Of a stretch of DNA of 64,000 nt, positions 10,699 through 18,003 are shown piece after piece (positions within the stretch are counted from its first letter, which is position 1; the number at the start of each line of letters is the position of its first letter). Origin of the DNA: Actinomycetota bacterium (GTDB taxonomy: Bacteria; Actinomycetota; Acidimicrobiia; Acidimicrobiales; Ilumatobacteraceae); NCBI GenBank assembly GCA_005790505.1, contig SXUP01000019.1, forward strand, positions 1 through 64,000, written 5' to 3'. The position numbers and the translations under genes were made by a program. The notes under the pieces are model-generated. The model was not told where the DNA came from. It did not search any database and saw only the letters and a list, made by a program, of their open reading frames with translations.

Positions 10699-11145
10699 AT
10701 GGGTCAGCCGGTAGCCGTTGAAGAAAAAACCTCCGCATTAGGTCGAATGGTCCGATTTGAGACCAACAGGTCTCTCACTGGGCAGGGACATGAGAACTTT
10801 GTCTCGGTAGAGAGTTGTCAGGGAACCAGACCATCGGCTGTGATTTCTCGGCGTTTTCTGGAATCAGGGCAAGTGATTTCGGTGCACGTCTTTAGCAATA
10901 TCGTGACCGCACAACTTGCGCCCGGAGCGACTCAGGCAGGCTTGACGGACATCGTGCGAGATCTCTATCAATATTGGAAACCCGGAATGGAACCACCAAG
11001 TATTGAATCTTTGATGGCTCAAGTAGAAGCACCAGTGGTTGACACTGCGCCGGTGGCGGCAGGTGGCGAAATCCTTGATCCACGCGTGCCAGCACATCTT
11101 TTTCAACGCAGCAAAGATGCACGTGCTCGTTTGACGGGGTCTTGA
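10699..11145 (+). CDS. Small conserved protein, possibly Nfu N-terminal-like
   Basis: This 148-aa protein is not securely recognised. Residues 17-95 (VRFETNRSLTGQGHENF, RRFLESGQVISVHVFSNIVT, DIVRDLYQYW) recall the small alpha/beta domain at the N-terminus of Nfu-type iron-sulfur scaffold proteins, but the CxxC scaffold domain is missing, so no Fe-S role can be claimed. The C-terminal 50 residues are Ala/Pro-rich and likely flexible. It stands alone with its own leaderless-type promoter. Confidence 0.6.
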   Translation: MGQPVAVEEKTSALGRMVRFETNRSLTGQGHENFVSVESCQGTRPSAVISRRFLESGQVISVHVFSNIVTAQLAPGATQAGLTDIVRDLYQYWKPGMEPPSIESLMAQVEAPVVDTAPVAAGGEILDPRVPAHLFQRSKDARARLTGS

Positions 11146-11171: not shown

Positions 11172-11196
11172 CATGTTTGTTGCTCCAACAAACATG
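11172..11196. promoter_or_regulatory. Perfect 11-bp inverted repeat before the CarH-like gene
   Basis: CATGTTTGTTG (11172-11182) and CAACAAACATG (11186-11196) are perfect reverse complements with a CTC spacer. The site ends 47 bp before the regulator's ATG and 35 bp before its -10. There is no T-run, so it reads as an operator, perhaps for autoregulation. Confidence 0.55.
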
Positions 11197-11231
11197 TTGG
11201 GCTCAGTCATAGTTGAAGTTCCTTTCACGCT

Positions 11232-11237
11232 TAGCCT
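11232..11237 (+). promoter_or_regulatory. -10 hexamer of the CarH-like gene (leaderless)
   Basis: TAGCCT ends 6 nt before the ATG at 11244. This spacing favours that ATG over the GTG at 11241. Confidence 0.5.
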
Positions 11238-11243
11238 GACGTG

Positions 11244-12110
11244 ATGGATTCTCCAGAGCGACGTTTTGTCTCGTTGAAGGAGGCCGCCGACTTGCTCGGA
11301 GTTCACTACATGACGGCTTATCGCTACGTGCGGCACGGTCAATTGGAGGCGCACAAAGAAGGTGGTATCTGGGTAGTTGCAGTGGATGATCTCTTGCTCT
11401 TTCAGAGCAAGCAAAATGACAGCAAGAAACCGCTTATCCAGACCAGTCAAATGATTCAAGATGTTCGGTCCTCTATCTGGCGCGATCGTCTTGAAGCATG
11501 CTTACTTGCCGGAGACGGCTCAGGATCTTGGTCAGTTCTAGAGGCAGCCATAGATTCTGGAGCAGAATTTGTAGATGTTTACCTTGATATCTTGGCGCCG
11601 GCAATGGCCGCGATTGGCGAGCGTTGGCATGCCGGCAAACTTGAAATTTATGTCGAGCATCGAGCGACAGGTATTGCTACTCGACTAGTGGCTCGCTTGG
11701 GTGCCAAGAGTGCTCATCGCGGACGCACACGCGGGGTTGTGTTGCTTGGAGCACCGTCCGGGGAGCACCATTCGCTGGCAATCTCAATTTTGGCGGACGT
11801 TGTTCGGTTGGCGAGATTTGAAGTGCATGATCTGGGGGCAGATCTACCAAACGAGACATTCTTGTCGGCCGTGCACCACTCCAATGGGATTTTAGCAATC
11901 GGGATCAGCGCAAATGCCGACGAATCGCGCTCAGCGGTGCGTGATTTAATTGTTCAGTTGCGGAATGTCATTGACCAAGATGTACGAGTATTTGTCGGCG
12001 GCAGAGCAATCAATAGCATGGCTGAAGCTCATCAACTCGGAGCCGATGAGTGGGCTTTGGACGCGCGTTCATTTGTGGTGGCACTTGACCGAATACTCAA
12101 AGGCAAATAA
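11244..12110 (+). CDS. B12-binding, CarH-like regulator with excisionase-type HTH
   Basis: This 288-aa protein has an N-terminal helix-turn-helix (residues 9-50, SLKEAADLLGVHYMTAYRYV), an all-helical B12 cap (about 80-155) and a Rossmann-like cobalamin domain (about 160-285). The cap carries the CarH photoreceptor signature W-x9-EH (Trp128, Glu138, His139). The lower axial histidine is probably His176 in an E-x-H context, with Ala instead of the usual Gly three residues on, and GG at 252-253 fits the nucleotide tail. CarH uses adenosylcobalamin to sense light; whether this one does is inference. It sits directly upstream of the SOS mutasome genes. Confidence 0.82.
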   Translation: MDSPERRFVSLKEAADLLGVHYMTAYRYVRHGQLEAHKEGGIWVVAVDDLLLFQSKQNDSKKPLIQTSQMIQDVRSSIWRDRLEACLLAGDGSGSWSVLEAAIDSGAEFVDVYLDILAPAMAAIGERWHAGKLEIYVEHRATGIATRLVARLGAKSAHRGRTRGVVLLGAPSGEHHSLAISILADVVRLARFEVHDLGADLPNETFLSAVHHSNGILAIGISANADESRSAVRDLIVQLRNVIDQDVRVFVGGRAINSMAEAHQLGADEWALDARSFVVALDRILKGK

Positions 12111-12134
12111 CTAAAGGGCAAATAACTAAAGGGC
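12103..12134 (+). repeat. Short 15-bp tandem repeat
   Basis: The unit GCAAATAACTAAAGG occurs just over twice, beginning inside the regulator's last codons. It places a TAA stop in successive units. No function is apparent. Confidence 0.6.
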
Positions 12135-12177
12135 AAGGAATAAAACAACCGAAATACAAGAATCAATTTTGTAAGTA

Positions 12178-12191
12178 CGAACATATGTTCG
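12178..12191. promoter_or_regulatory. LexA-type SOS box upstream of imuA
   Basis: CGAACATATGTTCG is a perfect 14-bp palindrome matching the actinobacterial LexA consensus CGAAC-N4-GTTCG. It overlaps the promoter spacer: a TTGTAA lies at 12169-12174 and a TACAAT -10 at 12193-12198. Confidence 0.92.
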
Positions 12192-12192
12192 C

Positions 12193-12198
12193 TACAAT
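12193..12198 (+). promoter_or_regulatory. -10 hexamer of imuA (leaderless)
   Basis: TACAAT directly follows the LexA box and is 6 nt before the ATG at 12205, so transcription should start at or next to the start codon. Confidence 0.6.
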
Positions 12199-12204
12199 AG
12201 TGGC

Positions 12205-12855
12205 ATGATTCGTCCTGGGGTGGCAGAAATACTCACAAGTACCCATCTCATGTCTGGTCAAGATCTAGTGCAACGCCAGACCCAGCATGGGCTCATCTCT
12301 GTTGCTGCTGAGGCATGTGCAATCTTGCCGAAGGGTGCGCTTGAACGGGGTTGCGTATATCAGTGCGTCGGGTCTGGCGCGACGTCACTTGTGTGGTCGC
12401 TTGTCGCGCGTGCAATATCTGACGGATCATGGATGGCTTTGGTAGATCTGCCGCACGCAGGTTTGTTGTCGGTGCGCGAGTACGGAGTAGCACTCGAAAG
12501 ACTGTTGTGTATTAATACCAGCCGTGTGACACAGCATTGGTCGCGCATGATGGGTGCCCTAGTTGACGGTATTGATCTTGTCGTAACTGCCCCGCCACGA
12601 TGCAGTGCAACAGATGCGCGCAAACTCACAACACGAGTCAAAGCACAGTCTGCAGTGCTGTTCGTAATTGGCGACACACATGATTTTCCAGTTGACATCA
12701 CCCTGCGTATTGCATCATCGCGATGGATGTTTAGTGGACATGCCCGTCAACGGGAAGTCACGGTTATCACAGAAGGCCGTCGTGTGTACAACATGCAGCC
12801 ACAAAAAATACTTCTACCACGACTATCTGAGCACTTTTTGCAAGTGTCATGTTGA
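12205..12855 (+). CDS. imuA: ImuA' accessory protein of the DnaE2 mutasome
   Basis: This 216-aa protein has a RecA-like core of the ImuA/SulA type. The region that would be Walker A (VGSGATS, near residue 56) lacks the usual lysine, so ATP binding may be lost. In mycobacteria ImuA' and ImuB connect DnaE2 to the beta clamp during translesion synthesis. The identification rests on modest sequence similarity plus the SOS box and the adjacent imuB. The stop overlaps the imuB start by 7 bp. The transcript is predicted to be leaderless. Confidence 0.82.
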   Translation: MIRPGVAEILTSTHLMSGQDLVQRQTQHGLISVAAEACAILPKGALERGCVYQCVGSGATSLVWSLVARAISDGSWMALVDLPHAGLLSVREYGVALERLLCINTSRVTQHWSRMMGALVDGIDLVVTAPPRCSATDARKLTTRVKAQSAVLFVIGDTHDFPVDITLRIASSRWMFSGHARQREVTVITEGRRVYNMQPQKILLPRLSEHFLQVSC

Positions 12856-14354
12856 GAACCACACGTACTGCAGCAGTTATTTTTCCAAACTGGGGCGCCA
12901 TGCCCGGGCACGACGATACAGATACTGCGCATCGCGCTTTTGAATCTGTAGTGCGTGCATTGTCTAGTCTTGCCCCACTGATTCAAGTAGATACTGCTGG
13001 CATTGCGCTTCTGGCAACAAGGGGCCCTTCACGGTACTTTGGCGGAGACGTCGCAGTCGGTTATCTGCTGCATGAGTTGTGCACAAAGCAAGCGTTGCCA
13101 GTGGTTCACGGTATAGGTATCGCCGATGGTCGAGTCGCAGCCTTGGCAGCGGCACACCAGTCATCTTTTTCTGACTCACCTTGCGTTGTTCCAGTTGGCA
13201 GCTCAGAAGACTTTCTGGGGCACTTGCCCACGGATGCATTAGGTGTGTGCGCAGACATTGATGCCGACACAATTGATTTGTTGCGACGACTTGGCCTTAC
13301 AACAATAGGGGCAGTCGCCGGACTAACAGAACGTGAATTAATCGACAGGTTTGGATTACTTGGCGAACGCTTGCACCAAATTGTTCACGGCTCTGATGTC
13401 AGCATGCTGGTGCCCGATGCGGTACCCATTGATGATGGTGTACAGCACATTTTTGAAGATCCAGTCTTGATTAGTGGAGCAGTGGTGGTAGCGCTGAGCG
13501 AGCCATCACACAATCTCATCAGGACGCTTGAGAGTCGTGCTCTGCAGTGCATTCGGTTGCACATGCTTTTTGAAACAGACCACGGCGAGCGCAATGAACG
13601 GATGTGGCATCAGCCCCGTGGATTCAGCGAAAAAGCAATTCTTGAACGCATGCGCTGGCAACTAGACGGCTGGCTCGGTGCTGATGTCGGAACGGCAGCA
13701 ACGGCTGGCATTACGCGGGTGCAACTTTCTCCCATGGACGTGCGCCCCATTGATGCCCAGCAACAGAGTCTGTGGGGTGGTCGTCAGGAGCATGTTGAAC
13801 GCGTCTTGCGAAGCATTTCACTCGCAATTTCCGTACATGCCGATATTGATATCACTGTTCCAGAATGGCAAGGTGGGCGTGATGTTGCCCGTGTTTTTTC
13901 ACAAGTTCCAGTGGGCAGTGTAGATATTCGAGATTATGTGGCGTGTGCAGAACGCGTCAGCATCGGACGCGGAGCCCAACAACACTGGACAGGTTCGGTG
14001 CCCACGCCTTGGCCAGCAATTGTCTTTTCGCAACCACAACTAGTGCAATTGCAAGACAAAGATGGGTTGATGGTGGTGATTACTGGACGTCACGAACTAT
14101 TGCAGATGCCAAGCATCCTGTGTGTGCGGGGTGGATTACTGGATCACAGTGCACGCTTGGCAGATGTAGTTAATTATACAGTGCAAGAATTTGCTGGTCC
14201 GTGGCCCGTAGAAGAACGATGGTGGGATCCGATACGTCGACGTCGGCTGGCGCGATTGCAACTACTCGTTCAGCACCCCCATACGCAAGTGGAGTATCTA
14301 GTTCTGTTGACGATTGAAAATCAACAATGGTATATCAGTGCCGTATACGACTAG
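12849..14354 (+). CDS. imuB: ImuB, catalytically defective Y-family polymerase homologue
   Basis: This 501-aa protein aligns with Y-family DNA polymerases, with the N-terminal region (VIFPNWGAM) where an active enzyme has DMDxFF, and VDTAGIALLAT where it has the SIDE motif. The catalytic acidic residues are therefore missing, as in known ImuB proteins, which act as hubs linking ImuA', DnaE2 and the beta clamp. A helix-hairpin-helix-like segment occurs near residues 136-165 (LLRRLGLTTIGAVAGL). The C-terminus (about 380-501) is the ImuB-specific tail. It is coupled to imuA by a 7-bp overlap. Confidence 0.92.
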   Translation: MLRTTRTAAVIFPNWGAMPGHDDTDTAHRAFESVVRALSSLAPLIQVDTAGIALLATRGPSRYFGGDVAVGYLLHELCTKQALPVVHGIGIADGRVAALAAAHQSSFSDSPCVVPVGSSEDFLGHLPTDALGVCADIDADTIDLLRRLGLTTIGAVAGLTERELIDRFGLLGERLHQIVHGSDVSMLVPDAVPIDDGVQHIFEDPVLISGAVVVALSEPSHNLIRTLESRALQCIRLHMLFETDHGERNERMWHQPRGFSEKAILERMRWQLDGWLGADVGTAATAGITRVQLSPMDVRPIDAQQQSLWGGRQEHVERVLRSISLAISVHADIDITVPEWQGGRDVARVFSQVPVGSVDIRDYVACAERVSIGRGAQQHWTGSVPTPWPAIVFSQPQLVQLQDKDGLMVVITGRHELLQMPSILCVRGGLLDHSARLADVVNYTVQEFAGPWPVEERWWDPIRRRRLARLQLLVQHPHTQVEYLVLLTIENQQWYISAVYD

Positions 14355-14364
14355 CGTGGCGGTC

Positions 14365-14901
14365 ATGTTGCATCAACTTCTTGGTACGTTGCGCGCCCAT
14401 GTTGCAATTGATCAGCGAGAACAAGACTCAGTACAACATTTTTTAGATGTGGTCCCCACTTTGTTGCGTCCGTGTGACGAAGACGCAGGGCCACTGCATG
14501 TCACTGCCTCGGCAATCGTTGTTAATTCTGCAATCAGTCCAACAGCAACCGTTCTGCATCTGCACAAACGACTGAATCTATGGTTGCAGCCAGGTGGGCA
14601 TATTGAAGTCGGTGAAACACCTGCTGATGCAGCACTTCGGGAAGCTCATGAAGAAACTGGTCTCGTAGTGGCACATCCCATCACAGGTGAACGCTTTATT
14701 CATGTTGATGTGCATCCCGGACCACGCGGTCACACGCATTTCGATTTGCGCTATGTCGTGGTTGCACCGCACGAGACGCCAAAACCCGGACCAGAAGAAA
14801 GCCAGGATGTGGATTGGTTCACATGGGAGCAAGCCTTAGCAATTGCTGATGACGGGTTGCGGGGTGCACTGTTGGCCTGCCAAGCCATAATCGGTGGTTA
14901 A
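14365..14901 (+). CDS. NUDIX hydrolase within the mutasome cluster
   Basis: This 178-aa protein has a complete Nudix box, GHIEVGE-x7-REAHEETGL, at about residues 77-99, which binds divalent metal and hydrolyses nucleoside diphosphate derivatives. Its position between imuB and the dnaE2 SOS box suggests that it is co-induced by DNA damage and may sanitise oxidised nucleotides; that is inference. The start is ATG 14365, or a GTG at 14356 two bases after the imuB stop. The substrate cannot be deduced. Confidence 0.88.
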   Translation: MLHQLLGTLRAHVAIDQREQDSVQHFLDVVPTLLRPCDEDAGPLHVTASAIVVNSAISPTATVLHLHKRLNLWLQPGGHIEVGETPADAALREAHEETGLVVAHPITGERFIHVDVHPGPRGHTHFDLRYVVVAPHETPKPGPEESQDVDWFTWEQALAIADDGLRGALLACQAIIGG

Positions 14902-14904
14902 GTA

Positions 14905-14918
14905 CGAACATATGTTCG
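14905..14918. promoter_or_regulatory. LexA-type SOS box upstream of dnaE2
   Basis: The same 14-bp palindrome as at 12178 occurs here, within 24 bp of exact identity between the two sites (12172-12195 and 14899-14922). It begins 3 bp after the nudix stop codon. Confidence 0.92.
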
Positions 14919-14919
14919 C

Positions 14920-14925
14920 TACGAT
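14920..14925 (+). promoter_or_regulatory. -10 hexamer of dnaE2 (leaderless)
   Basis: TACGAT abuts the SOS box and ends 6 nt before the ATG at 14932, the same geometry as at imuA. Confidence 0.55.
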
Positions 14926-14931
14926 GGCTGG

Positions 14932-17900
14932 ATGGTCGCGTACGCAGAGTTGCATTGTCGCTCAAATTTCTCATTCTTAAATGGGGCATCCCATCCCGAA
15001 CAACTGGCTGAATGTGCAGCCCAACTCCAACTAGGAGCACTCGCCCTGACCGATCGCAATGGGTTTTATGGTGTCGTGCGGTTTGCTCAAGCAGCACGAG
15101 CAGTGGGTTTGCCGACTGTTTTTGGCGCCGAGATGTGGTGTAGCGGTTTTAGTGGAGCAGTTTGTGCCGGCGATGTGGTGTTTCTGGCCAAAGGGGTAGC
15201 CGGATACGCACAGTTGTGCCGAGCAATCAGTGAAGCCCAACTAGCGGGTGTCAAGAACGCCCCACTCACAGATGTGCGAATGTTTGCGGCGCATGTCATG
15301 AATCATTGTTGGGTACTGACGGGCTCATCAAGCGGTGCAGTAGTGCGTGCACTGATGCAACATGGACCAGCCGCTGCAGACCGAGTATTGGCACAATTGT
15401 GCGAACTATTCGGGGCGTCCAATGTTCTTGTTGAATTATGGGATCATGGCGACCCTCTAGACACTGCACGCAATGATGCACTCGTGCAACTTGCCGCACG
15501 ACGCGACTTATTGTGCCTAGCAACTAACGATGTGTCATATGCACTACCGGCACATCATCGCGTTGCCACAGCTTTTTCTGCCATCAACAAACGTTCTGCA
15601 TTGAATACGGTTGATTATCTATTGGCCCCTGCCGCTACTGCGTATTTGCGTAGCACCGCAGAGCAATATCGTCGGTTTGCGCGCTATCCAGGTGTTGTTG
15701 AGGCGGCTGGCAGCATTGGAGCCACCGCCGCGTTTGATCTGTCGCTTGTAGCACCGCGACTCCCACCATTTCCATGTCCAGAAAACATGACAGAAATTGC
15801 TTACTTGCGAGATTTGACAGAGCAAGGTGCAACGCATCGCTACGGTCTACGACCCGCAAATAGCGAAGAAGATTTATCACTTCGTGCCAGGGCTTGGCGA
15901 GTTATTGATCACGAACTTGAAGTCATCGAGGTGCTTGGGTTTGCCGGGTATTTCTTGGTGGTTTGGGATATTGTTGAGTTCTGCCGACGCTCAGATATTT
16001 TGTGTCAAGGACGAGGTAGTGCAGCCAATAGTGCCGTGTGTTACGCCATCGGCATCACCAAGGCCGATGCCGTGTCGCTGGGCTTGTTATTCGAGCGGTT
16101 CTTGTCGCCAGAGCGTGATGGTCCGCCTGACATTGACATTGACATTGAAAGTGGTCGTCGCGAAGAAGTAATTCAGTACGTCTATCAACGACACGGACGG
16201 CACCATGCTGCTCAGGTGGCAAATGTGATTACATATCGCACTAAATCAGCAGTGCGCGACATGGAACGTGCACTCGGTGTTGCTCACAACCAAGAAGACA
16301 CAGATCCACAGGTGCAAGAACTAGCAGACCTCATTCAGGATATGCCGCGTCATTTGGGTATTCATTCTGGCGGAATGGTGATGTGTGATCGACCTGTAAT
16401 TGAAGTGTGTCCAGTCGAGTGGGGTCGGATGCAGAATCGAAGTGTGTTGCAGTGGGACAAAGATGACTGTGCTGCTGCTGGGCTTGTAAAATTCGATCTT
16501 CTGGGGCTCGGAATGCTGTCGGCTCTGCATAACGCCACAGACTTTATTTTGCAGCACCGCGGATACGAACTCGATCTGGCAACATTGCCCCAAGAAGATG
16601 ATGTGTATGCCATGTTGTGTCGTGCCGACACCGTGGGTGTGTTTCAGATCGAGTCAAGAGCGCAAATGGCAACATTGCCTCGCCTCAAGCCGCGCCGATT
16701 TTATGATCTAGTCGTCGAAATCGCGCTCATTAGACCAGGACCCATTCAAGGTGGATCCGTTCATCCCTATATTCGACGACGCAACGGTAAAGAGCCCGTG
16801 ACATATCTACATCCATTGCTTGAAAATAGTTTAGGAAAAACACTTGGTGTGCCGTTGTTTCAAGAACAGTTGATGCAAATGGCAATTGATATCGCTGGGT
16901 TTACGCCAGCAGAAGCAGATCAATTGCGCCAAGCAATGGGTTCAAAGCGATCTCGAGCACGCATGCAACAGTTGCGAGAGCGTTTGTATATCGGCATGGC
17001 AGAGCGCGGTGTCAAGGGGGCAATCGCTGATCAAATTTTTGACAAGATGAAGGCGTTTGCTCATTATGGATTTCCTGAAAGTCACGCAGTCAGTTTTGCC
17101 TATTTGGTGTACTCATCGTCGTGGATCAAGTTGCATGAACCGGCAGTATTTTGTGCAGCATTGCTAAATGCTCAGCCGATGGGATTTTGGTCACCGCATA
17201 CATTGGCTCAAGACGCAAGACGACATGGCGTAGTGGTGCTTTCACCTGACATCAATGAGTCCTCAGATAGTGCGACATTAGAGTTTTGTGCTGAGTCAAA
17301 TGGTCAATTAGCCGTGCGAATGGGCGTCGGCTCAGTGCGTGGAGTCGGCGCTGAATTGGCTGCTCGCATTGCCTCGGGTAGGCCATACGTCAGCATCGAT
17401 GATCTAAGCCGGCGTGTGAGTGGGTTGTCACGTCCACATATAGAAGCGATGGCCACTGCCGGTGTATTTCAGAATGGTTTTGGGCTCAGTCGGCGCAGTG
17501 CACTTTGGAGTGCTGGTTCACATGTATCTGGTAACGCAGAAAGATTAGAAGGAGTTACTGCCGTGCAGACAGCACCACACCTGCCAGGCATGAAACCCAT
17601 CGAAGAAGCCATTGCAGATTTATGGGCAACAGGAATATCTCCCAACGGGCACCCCACAAAGTTTGTGCGCGAGCAACTGTCCGCACTCGGAGTGGTGTGC
17701 GCTGATGTGCTCAACCACATTCCCAGCACACAGCGAGTGTGGGTGGCTGGAGTTGTAACACATCGTCAGCGACCAATGACGGCTAACGGTGCAACATTCA
17801 TCAATCTTGAAGACGAAACAGGGCTTATTAACGTTGTATGTTCAATCGGATGCTGGGCTCGACATCGCAGCGTGGCTCGCAATGCACCAGCGTTGTTGGT

Positions 17901-18003
17901 GCGTGGACGAATTGAAAATGTTGAAGGTGCAATCAACATTATCGCTGAGGTCATATCCCCGTTGCACGCCGTCGCTTCAGCAGGTAGTCGTGATTTTCGG
18001 TGA
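14932..18003 (+). CDS. dnaE2: Error-prone DNA polymerase III alpha subunit DnaE2
   Basis: This 1023-aa polymerase begins with a PHP domain (AELHCRSNFSFLNGAS), followed by the C-family palm with catalytic aspartates in PPDIDID (residues 398-404), the fingers (about 500-750), a helix-hairpin-helix region (about 790-860), and an OB fold near the C-terminus (VWVAGVVTHRQRP at about 925). It lacks the long C-terminal tau-binding extension of replicative DnaE1, as DnaE2 does. It performs mutagenic translesion synthesis with ImuA' and ImuB. Its own SOS box sits 13 bp upstream. It converges on the DUF3039 gene with a 3-bp gap. Confidence 0.96.
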   Translation: MVAYAELHCRSNFSFLNGASHPEQLAECAAQLQLGALALTDRNGFYGVVRFAQAARAVGLPTVFGAEMWCSGFSGAVCAGDVVFLAKGVAGYAQLCRAISEAQLAGVKNAPLTDVRMFAAHVMNHCWVLTGSSSGAVVRALMQHGPAAADRVLAQLCELFGASNVLVELWDHGDPLDTARNDALVQLAARRDLLCLATNDVSYALPAHHRVATAFSAINKRSALNTVDYLLAPAATAYLRSTAEQYRRFARYPGVVEAAGSIGATAAFDLSLVAPRLPPFPCPENMTEIAYLRDLTEQGATHRYGLRPANSEEDLSLRARAWRVIDHELEVIEVLGFAGYFLVVWDIVEFCRRSDILCQGRGSAANSAVCYAIGITKADAVSLGLLFERFLSPERDGPPDIDIDIESGRREEVIQYVYQRHGRHHAAQVANVITYRTKSAVRDMERALGVAHNQEDTDPQVQELADLIQDMPRHLGIHSGGMVMCDRPVIEVCPVEWGRMQNRSVLQWDKDDCAAAGLVKFDLLGLGMLSALHNATDFILQHRGYELDLATLPQEDDVYAMLCRADTVGVFQIESRAQMATLPRLKPRRFYDLVVEIALIRPGPIQGGSVHPYIRRRNGKEPVTYLHPLLENSLGKTLGVPLFQEQLMQMAIDIAGFTPAEADQLRQAMGSKRSRARMQQLRERLYIGMAERGVKGAIADQIFDKMKAFAHYGFPESHAVSFAYLVYSSSWIKLHEPAVFCAALLNAQPMGFWSPHTLAQDARRHGVVVLSPDINESSDSATLEFCAESNGQLAVRMGVGSVRGVGAELAARIASGRPYVSIDDLSRRVSGLSRPHIEAMATAGVFQNGFGLSRRSALWSAGSHVSGNAERLEGVTAVQTAPHLPGMKPIEEAIADLWATGISPNGHPTKFVREQLSALGVVCADVLNHIPSTQRVWVAGVVTHRQRPMTANGATFINLEDETGLINVVCSIGCWARHRSVARNAPALLVRGRIENVEGAINIIAEVISPLHAVASAGSRDFR

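Follow-up and report, generated by a model that had tools for sequence, protein, structure and literature searches.

In the window, the whole 64,000-nucleotide stretch of Ilumatobacteraceae DNA analysed here, a gene that very probably encodes a B12 photoreceptor lies immediately upstream of an SOS-controlled mutasome operon, and this placement is conserved across the family. The protein domains, the photoreceptor signature, the gene order, the LexA boxes, a conserved promoter element and the lack of a predicted terminator behind the gene in the window together support, at the level of sequence, a picture that we put forward tentatively: an autoregulating AdoCbl photoreceptor repressor with an excisionase-type HTH, whose light-released promoter would read through into imuA'-imuB. 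The regulator may alter mutasome expression, and it is about as likely to be a mere passenger at this locus. The relevant features of the window are as follows.

10699-11145, plus strand: u148, a small protein, always directly upstream of the regulator
11172-11196, no strand: perfect 11-bp inverted repeat CATGTTTGTTG-CTC-CAACAAACATG, in the 98-bp gap before the regulator gene
11200-11214, plus strand: GGGCTCAGTCATAGT, a degenerate copy of the conserved element GCACRRTCACGCA with five mismatches to the consensus; candidate autoregulatory site
11232-11237, plus strand: inferred -10 of the regulator, TAGCCT, 6 nt before the ATG (leaderless start)
11244-12110, plus strand: CarH-like regulator gene (frame 11241/11244-12110, 288 aa); HTH_17 at residues 9-57, four-helix B12 cap at 80-152 and Rossmann B12 domain at 165-268 (Pfam and AlphaFold2)
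12178-12191, no strand: LexA box CGAACATATGTTCG of imuA', 27 bp before the ATG
12205-12855, plus strand: imuA' (NCBIfam ImuA', Rv3395c, 91 bits, cut-off 65)
12849-14354, plus strand: imuB (weak Y-family polymerase matches; gene order)
14314-14901, plus strand: NUDIX hydrolase (NUDIX 64.5 bits), conserved between imuB and dnaE2
14905-14918, no strand: second LexA box CGAACATATGTTCG, 27 bp before dnaE2
14932-18003, plus strand: dnaE2 (PolIII alpha domains; gene order)

The regulator has B12-binding domains and an excisionase-type HTH

An earlier, sequence-only reading of this DNA had given its observation the interval 11172-12110. As an open frame that interval fails, since it contains two stops and 11172 is merely where the inverted repeat starts, but there is indeed a gene at 11244-12110. 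The same reading had described a W-x9-EH photoreceptor signature joined to an excisionase-type HTH, and both are present. The Pfam matches all exceed their cut-offs (HTH_17 38.6 bits, B12-binding_2 51.4, B12-binding 49.2); no MerR family of Pfam matches the protein, its DNA-binding domain being HTH_17 instead, and the NCBIfam "excise" model, at 28.1, falls just below its cut-off of 28.8. The B12-binding helical cap and Rossmann domain (PF02607 and PF02310) also give Foldseek matches to CarH. Nevertheless, because the protein reaches only 46.6 bits with the NCBIfam CarH model, whose cut-off is 400, the regulator is not a CarH in the strict sense.

The signature residues are W128-x9-E138-H139, H176 occupies the position expected of the lower axial ligand, and the published signature of light-responsive B12 domains is complete: GxxW (G125/W128), EH (E138/H139), GxxH (G173/H176) and GxxxP (G198/P202). 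All four motifs are near-invariant in 81 orthologues, W128, E138, H139 and H176 being strictly so; these orthologues were fetched by peptide patterns, which somewhat biases the invariance, and a wider alignment that includes paralogues agrees. In other proteins this signature predicted a green-light response that was confirmed experimentally, and its W, EH and GxxxP motifs, which contact the adenosyl group, are markers of light-responsive domains (PMC11796333). The histidine next to the tryptophan in the window's protein, H129, is the equivalent of H132 of TtCarH; this position is Ala, Glu or Ser in most orthologues. The confident AlphaFold2 model (mean pLDDT 91.8) shows a small winged HTH followed by a four-helix bundle and then a Rossmann domain, and its best structural matches are the photocobilins (rmsd 1.7 Å), the CtMerR B12 domain and CarH. 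A sequence-profile ranking of the solved B12 domains likewise puts the photocobilins and CtMerR above CarH (E down to 6.5e-38). Such a protein would be expected to bind AdoCbl and to respond to light.

An SOS-controlled mutasome cassette

That the regulator adjoins the SOS mutasome, as the first reading had it, is clear from the operon imuA'-imuB-NUDIX-dnaE2 and its LexA boxes. The box of imuA' is flanked by a -35 (TTGTAA, 12169) and a -10 (TACAAT, 12193), and the boxes before imuA' and dnaE2 are placed alike in most relatives; there is no clean LexA box before the regulator gene. The distance from LexA box to start codon is a fixed 27 bp (12178-12204 and 14905-14931 in the window), with the -10 about 6 nt before the start codon, a layout of leaderless SOS promoters that is retained throughout the family.

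The window also encodes a WYL-WCX protein of the PafBC type, at 67-756, some 11 kb from the mutasome. PafBC is a second regulator of the mutasome cassette in mycobacteria (PMC10421592), as is DdiA for dnaE2 in Myxococcus (PMC12288472). In the open-access literature we found no system in which light controls the SOS response or translesion synthesis, a light-sensing regulator of this cassette included.

Conservation of the neighbourhood

Among 222 Ilumatobacteraceae genomes, a regulator homologue occurs in 131 and imuB in 192. At least 94 genomes have both, and in at least 72 of these the two are adjacent, with the regulator upstream on the same strand. The mutasome-linked regulators form a single clade (SH-aLRT 97 in a tree built by a quick method), within which imuA' lies directly downstream of the regulator in 51 of the 55 testable loci; the comparison of neighbours that the sequence-only reading had proposed thus finds the adjacency conserved across the family. 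Since the more distant neighbours are kept less often (ACAD in 35/52 loci, rnhB in 20/44), the link to imuA' is tighter than the surrounding synteny. It is no tighter, however, than the link to u148, which directly precedes the regulator in all 59 loci. The u148 proteins of relatives score 18-19 bits against Nfu_N, below the cut-off of 27, and the window's own u148 has no match to it; where the regulator is missing, u148 remains beside imuA'.

Relatives without the regulator have otherwise the same order, rnhB-ACAD-u148-imuA'-imuB-NUDIX, and the LexA box of imuA' is still present in 10 of the 11 gaps read in them (L143 being the exception). Consequently, the SOS-controlled cassette appears complete by itself, with the regulator as an optional extra; within the window's genus the regulator is found in only 7 of 32 genomes. 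There are other departures from the common arrangement. One sub-clade has a convergent gene between the regulator and imuA'; in loci of the genus g9 type (L188, L189, L062 and L074) the regulator stands at the rnhB-ACAD site and the mutasome is elsewhere; and in L151, which lies outside the clade, imuA-imuB is also a neighbour of the regulator. Several genomes of the g9 type carry a phytoene synthase.

The regulator promoter and the inverted repeat

The inferred leaderless -10 of the regulator has a counterpart, TAATCT, at identical spacing to the ATG in its three nearest orthologues (L033, L034 and L035; 65-69% protein identity). A motif search of the non-coding sequence upstream of the regulator gene found the element GCACRRTCACGCA in many lineages, with a log-likelihood of 88.7 versus 36-41 in shuffles. 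It begins about 33 nt before the -10 in the loci counted (the window, L033, L034, L036, L069 and L081). The exact pattern gives 17 sites in 11 genomes, versus 1 for the reversed control; every intergenic site is before a regulator gene and the remaining ones fall inside open frames, for which reason a wider regulon was rejected. No copy of the element stands at the promoters of imuA' or dnaE2 in 1 Mb of sequence from related loci, and no other element shared among the mutasome promoters was found. The simplest reading of GCACRRTCACGCA is as a candidate autoregulatory site, and that the regulator controls itself seems to us a reasonable supposition.

The sequence-only reading had drawn attention instead to a perfect 11-bp inverted repeat before the gene, which it took for the operator. 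The repeat is real: no other perfect inverted repeat with arms of 11 bp or more and a loop of 0-8 occurs in the 64 kb, and none arose in 12 first-order Markov shuffles. Perfect, unique and located in the right gap, it could pass for an operator, but several observations make this very improbable. The three nearest orthologues have no such repeat in the same gap; the genome search that this reading had suggested, run at up to 3 mismatches, returned this single site and no further copies; the repeat is a palindrome, whereas CarH takes tandem 11-bp direct repeats (PMC8156234); and it sits well upstream of the leaderless promoter, some 48-72 bp from the inferred transcription start. Being both unconserved and of the wrong type, it is not best read as a CarH operator, and is apparently species-specific. 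Alternatively, the repeat may be the terminator of u148, since its sequence can form a hairpin of -16 kcal/mol, although the T tract is missing. As for direct repeats of the CarH type, neither a set of 50 mutasome-linked promoters nor the window showed marked 10-11 bp periodicity.

Light-related genes and the paralogues

The window's genome encodes a rhodopsin, both a photolyase and a photolyase-like protein, and a PduO-type cobalamin adenosyltransferase, the gene for the latter being close to that for methionine synthase. Phytoene synthase is absent from this genome, and comparing the listings by hand we found it in only 10 of the at least 72 genomes with an adjacent regulator-imuB pair; a carotenoid target is therefore unlikely. 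The photolyase gene is unlinked to the regulator, and as a discriminator the presence of photolyase was discarded because it is almost universal (193/222 genomes).

Within the family, paralogues of the regulator face rhodopsin genes head to head, and beta-carotene dioxygenase and lycopene cyclase genes lie close to some of these pairs. The gaps between rhodopsin and paralogue (L172, L173, L176-L178, L182, L183, L185 and L186) contain TTAGY direct repeats at 10-bp spacing, and autocorrelation in the rhodopsin gaps gives z values of 4.3 at lag 10 and 6.8 at lag 20, a layout like that of CarH operators. It looks as if rhodopsin expression were under B12-light control by these paralogues. Other paralogues in the order adjoin lycopene cyclase, a photolyase-related protein, or an amine oxidase-cyclopropane synthase-SDR cluster that resembles a light-inducible cluster of Pseudomonas (PMC9758184). 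In a further sub-group of regulators (L101, L105, L108, L153, L155 and L168) the gene overlaps or abuts that of a sigma-70-type factor, with a peroxiredoxin and a photolyase-related protein (DPRP) also nearby in L153 and L155. Finally, L157 has a distant regulator homologue followed directly by formamidopyrimidine-DNA glycosylase (Fpg/Nei) and ferrochelatase, a second instance of a DNA-repair neighbour.

Could the regulator act on the mutasome?

The distance from the regulator stop to the imuA' LexA box is as little as 4 bp, in nine loci, with a median of 20 and a maximum of 94 (a lone -17 probably reflects a mis-called start or stop). With the LexA box beginning only a few bp after the stop, the short-gap lineages have no room for a terminator. 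In the window, short tandem duplications directly follow the regulator stop (12101-12137), as also in L049 and L112, and lengthen the gap to imuA'. No terminator-like site is predicted in the window's gap either. Transcription of the regulator should therefore run into imuA'-imuB. LexA bound between the two genes could limit or block this read-through, and in the sub-clade with an inserted convergent gene the route would be unusable.

As a working hypothesis, read-through from the regulator's own promoter is the best available route by which light could control mutagenesis. In the dark, the AdoCbl-bound regulator would repress its own leaderless promoter through an element that overlaps, or lies just upstream of, the -35. 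Light would break the Co-C bond and free this promoter, and transcription from it would continue into imuA'-imuB, because imuA' begins only a few to about 100 bp past the regulator stop with no terminator between. Sunlit cells would in this way gain a second input that primes the mutasome, besides LexA, which controls imuA' and dnaE2. The binding of AdoCbl, the response to light, the autorepression, the read-through and an effect on mutagenesis are the inferred parts of this scheme. The conserved placement of regulator and mutasome makes light-primed mutagenesis plausible. A more general version, in which the B12 photoreceptor repressor sets a light-dependent mutasome level throughout this family of sunlit-water actinobacteria, so that daylight primes error-prone synthesis before or alongside damage, is possible though rather doubtful. 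The notion of light-dependent mutagenesis control is still a hypothetical one, because the mutasome has its own LexA boxes, its promoters share no element, and SOS control is kept where the regulator is missing.

The most serious alternative, with a probability not far short of even, is that the regulator is a passenger by synteny, a light sensor that acts on itself and on distant targets (rhodopsin or photolyase, for example) and whose adjacency to the mutasome has no regulatory meaning. The regulator's bond to u148 is closer than that to imuA', the link has been inherited vertically within one clade, the loci without the regulator keep the remaining gene order, and the mutasome promoters have no common element. 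A passenger sits less easily with the far flanks, ACAD and rnhB, which are much less conserved than the regulator-imuA' pair, with a gap reduced to 4 bp in many lineages, or with the recurrence of an imuA-imuB neighbour outside the clade, in L151.

Direct repression of the CarH type, with the protein binding at or near the imuA' promoter and blocking it in the dark, would fit a gene directly upstream that carries a photoreceptor signature; we consider it improbable, given that the element of the regulator promoter is absent at the imuA' and dnaE2 promoters and that the imuA' promoter does not differ between loci that have the regulator and loci that lack it. Equally improbable is a light-independent sensor of B12 status that ties the gene to the cobalamin supply. 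The B12 domains, and an adenosyltransferase near methionine synthase, would suit such a role, but W, EH and GxxxP, the motifs that mark light-responsive domains (PMC11796333), are near-invariant, and the paralogues adjoin rhodopsin and carotenoid genes.

Comparison with known systems

The AdoCbl photoreceptor repressors CarH and class I LitR (of Thermus, Myxococcus, Bacillus and Streptomyces) share with the regulator a two-part B12 C-terminus, the W-x9-EH signature, the lower-ligand histidine and an N-terminal DNA-binding domain. In these known repressors light breaks up an oligomer that depends on AdoCbl. The regulator differs from them in having HTH_17 in place of MerR, in the lack of 11-bp direct repeats at its promoter, and in its mutasome neighbour where they have carotenoid genes. 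Its closest solved B12 domains are those of CtMerR and of the photocobilins SasPcob and AbDPcob, all three found by SignatureFinder and AbDPcob coming from an Acidimicrobiaceae bacterium. All of them have the four signature motifs, but the photocobilins bind biliverdin and are without a DNA-binding domain of this kind, and that of CtMerR is different.

The cassette itself resembles the mycobacterial ImuA'-ImuB-DnaE2 mutasome, with an ImuA' above the NCBIfam cut-off, ImuB, DnaE2 and LexA boxes; unlike the mycobacterial one, its genes lie in one neighbourhood, include a NUDIX gene and are preceded by a photoreceptor-type regulator. PafBC in mycobacteria and DdiA in Myxococcus provide a precedent for another regulator joining LexA in the control of these genes, but neither PafBC (WYL) nor DdiA (XRE) is a sensor of B12 or light.

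The B12 photoreceptors known so far control pigments and photoreversal. Should the clade described here control the mutasome, the mutation rate of abundant freshwater bacteria would respond directly to light. In either case, a family of excisionase-type B12 photoreceptors is now defined, with sub-clades tied to the mutasome, to rhodopsin/retinal genes and to photolyase-related genes.
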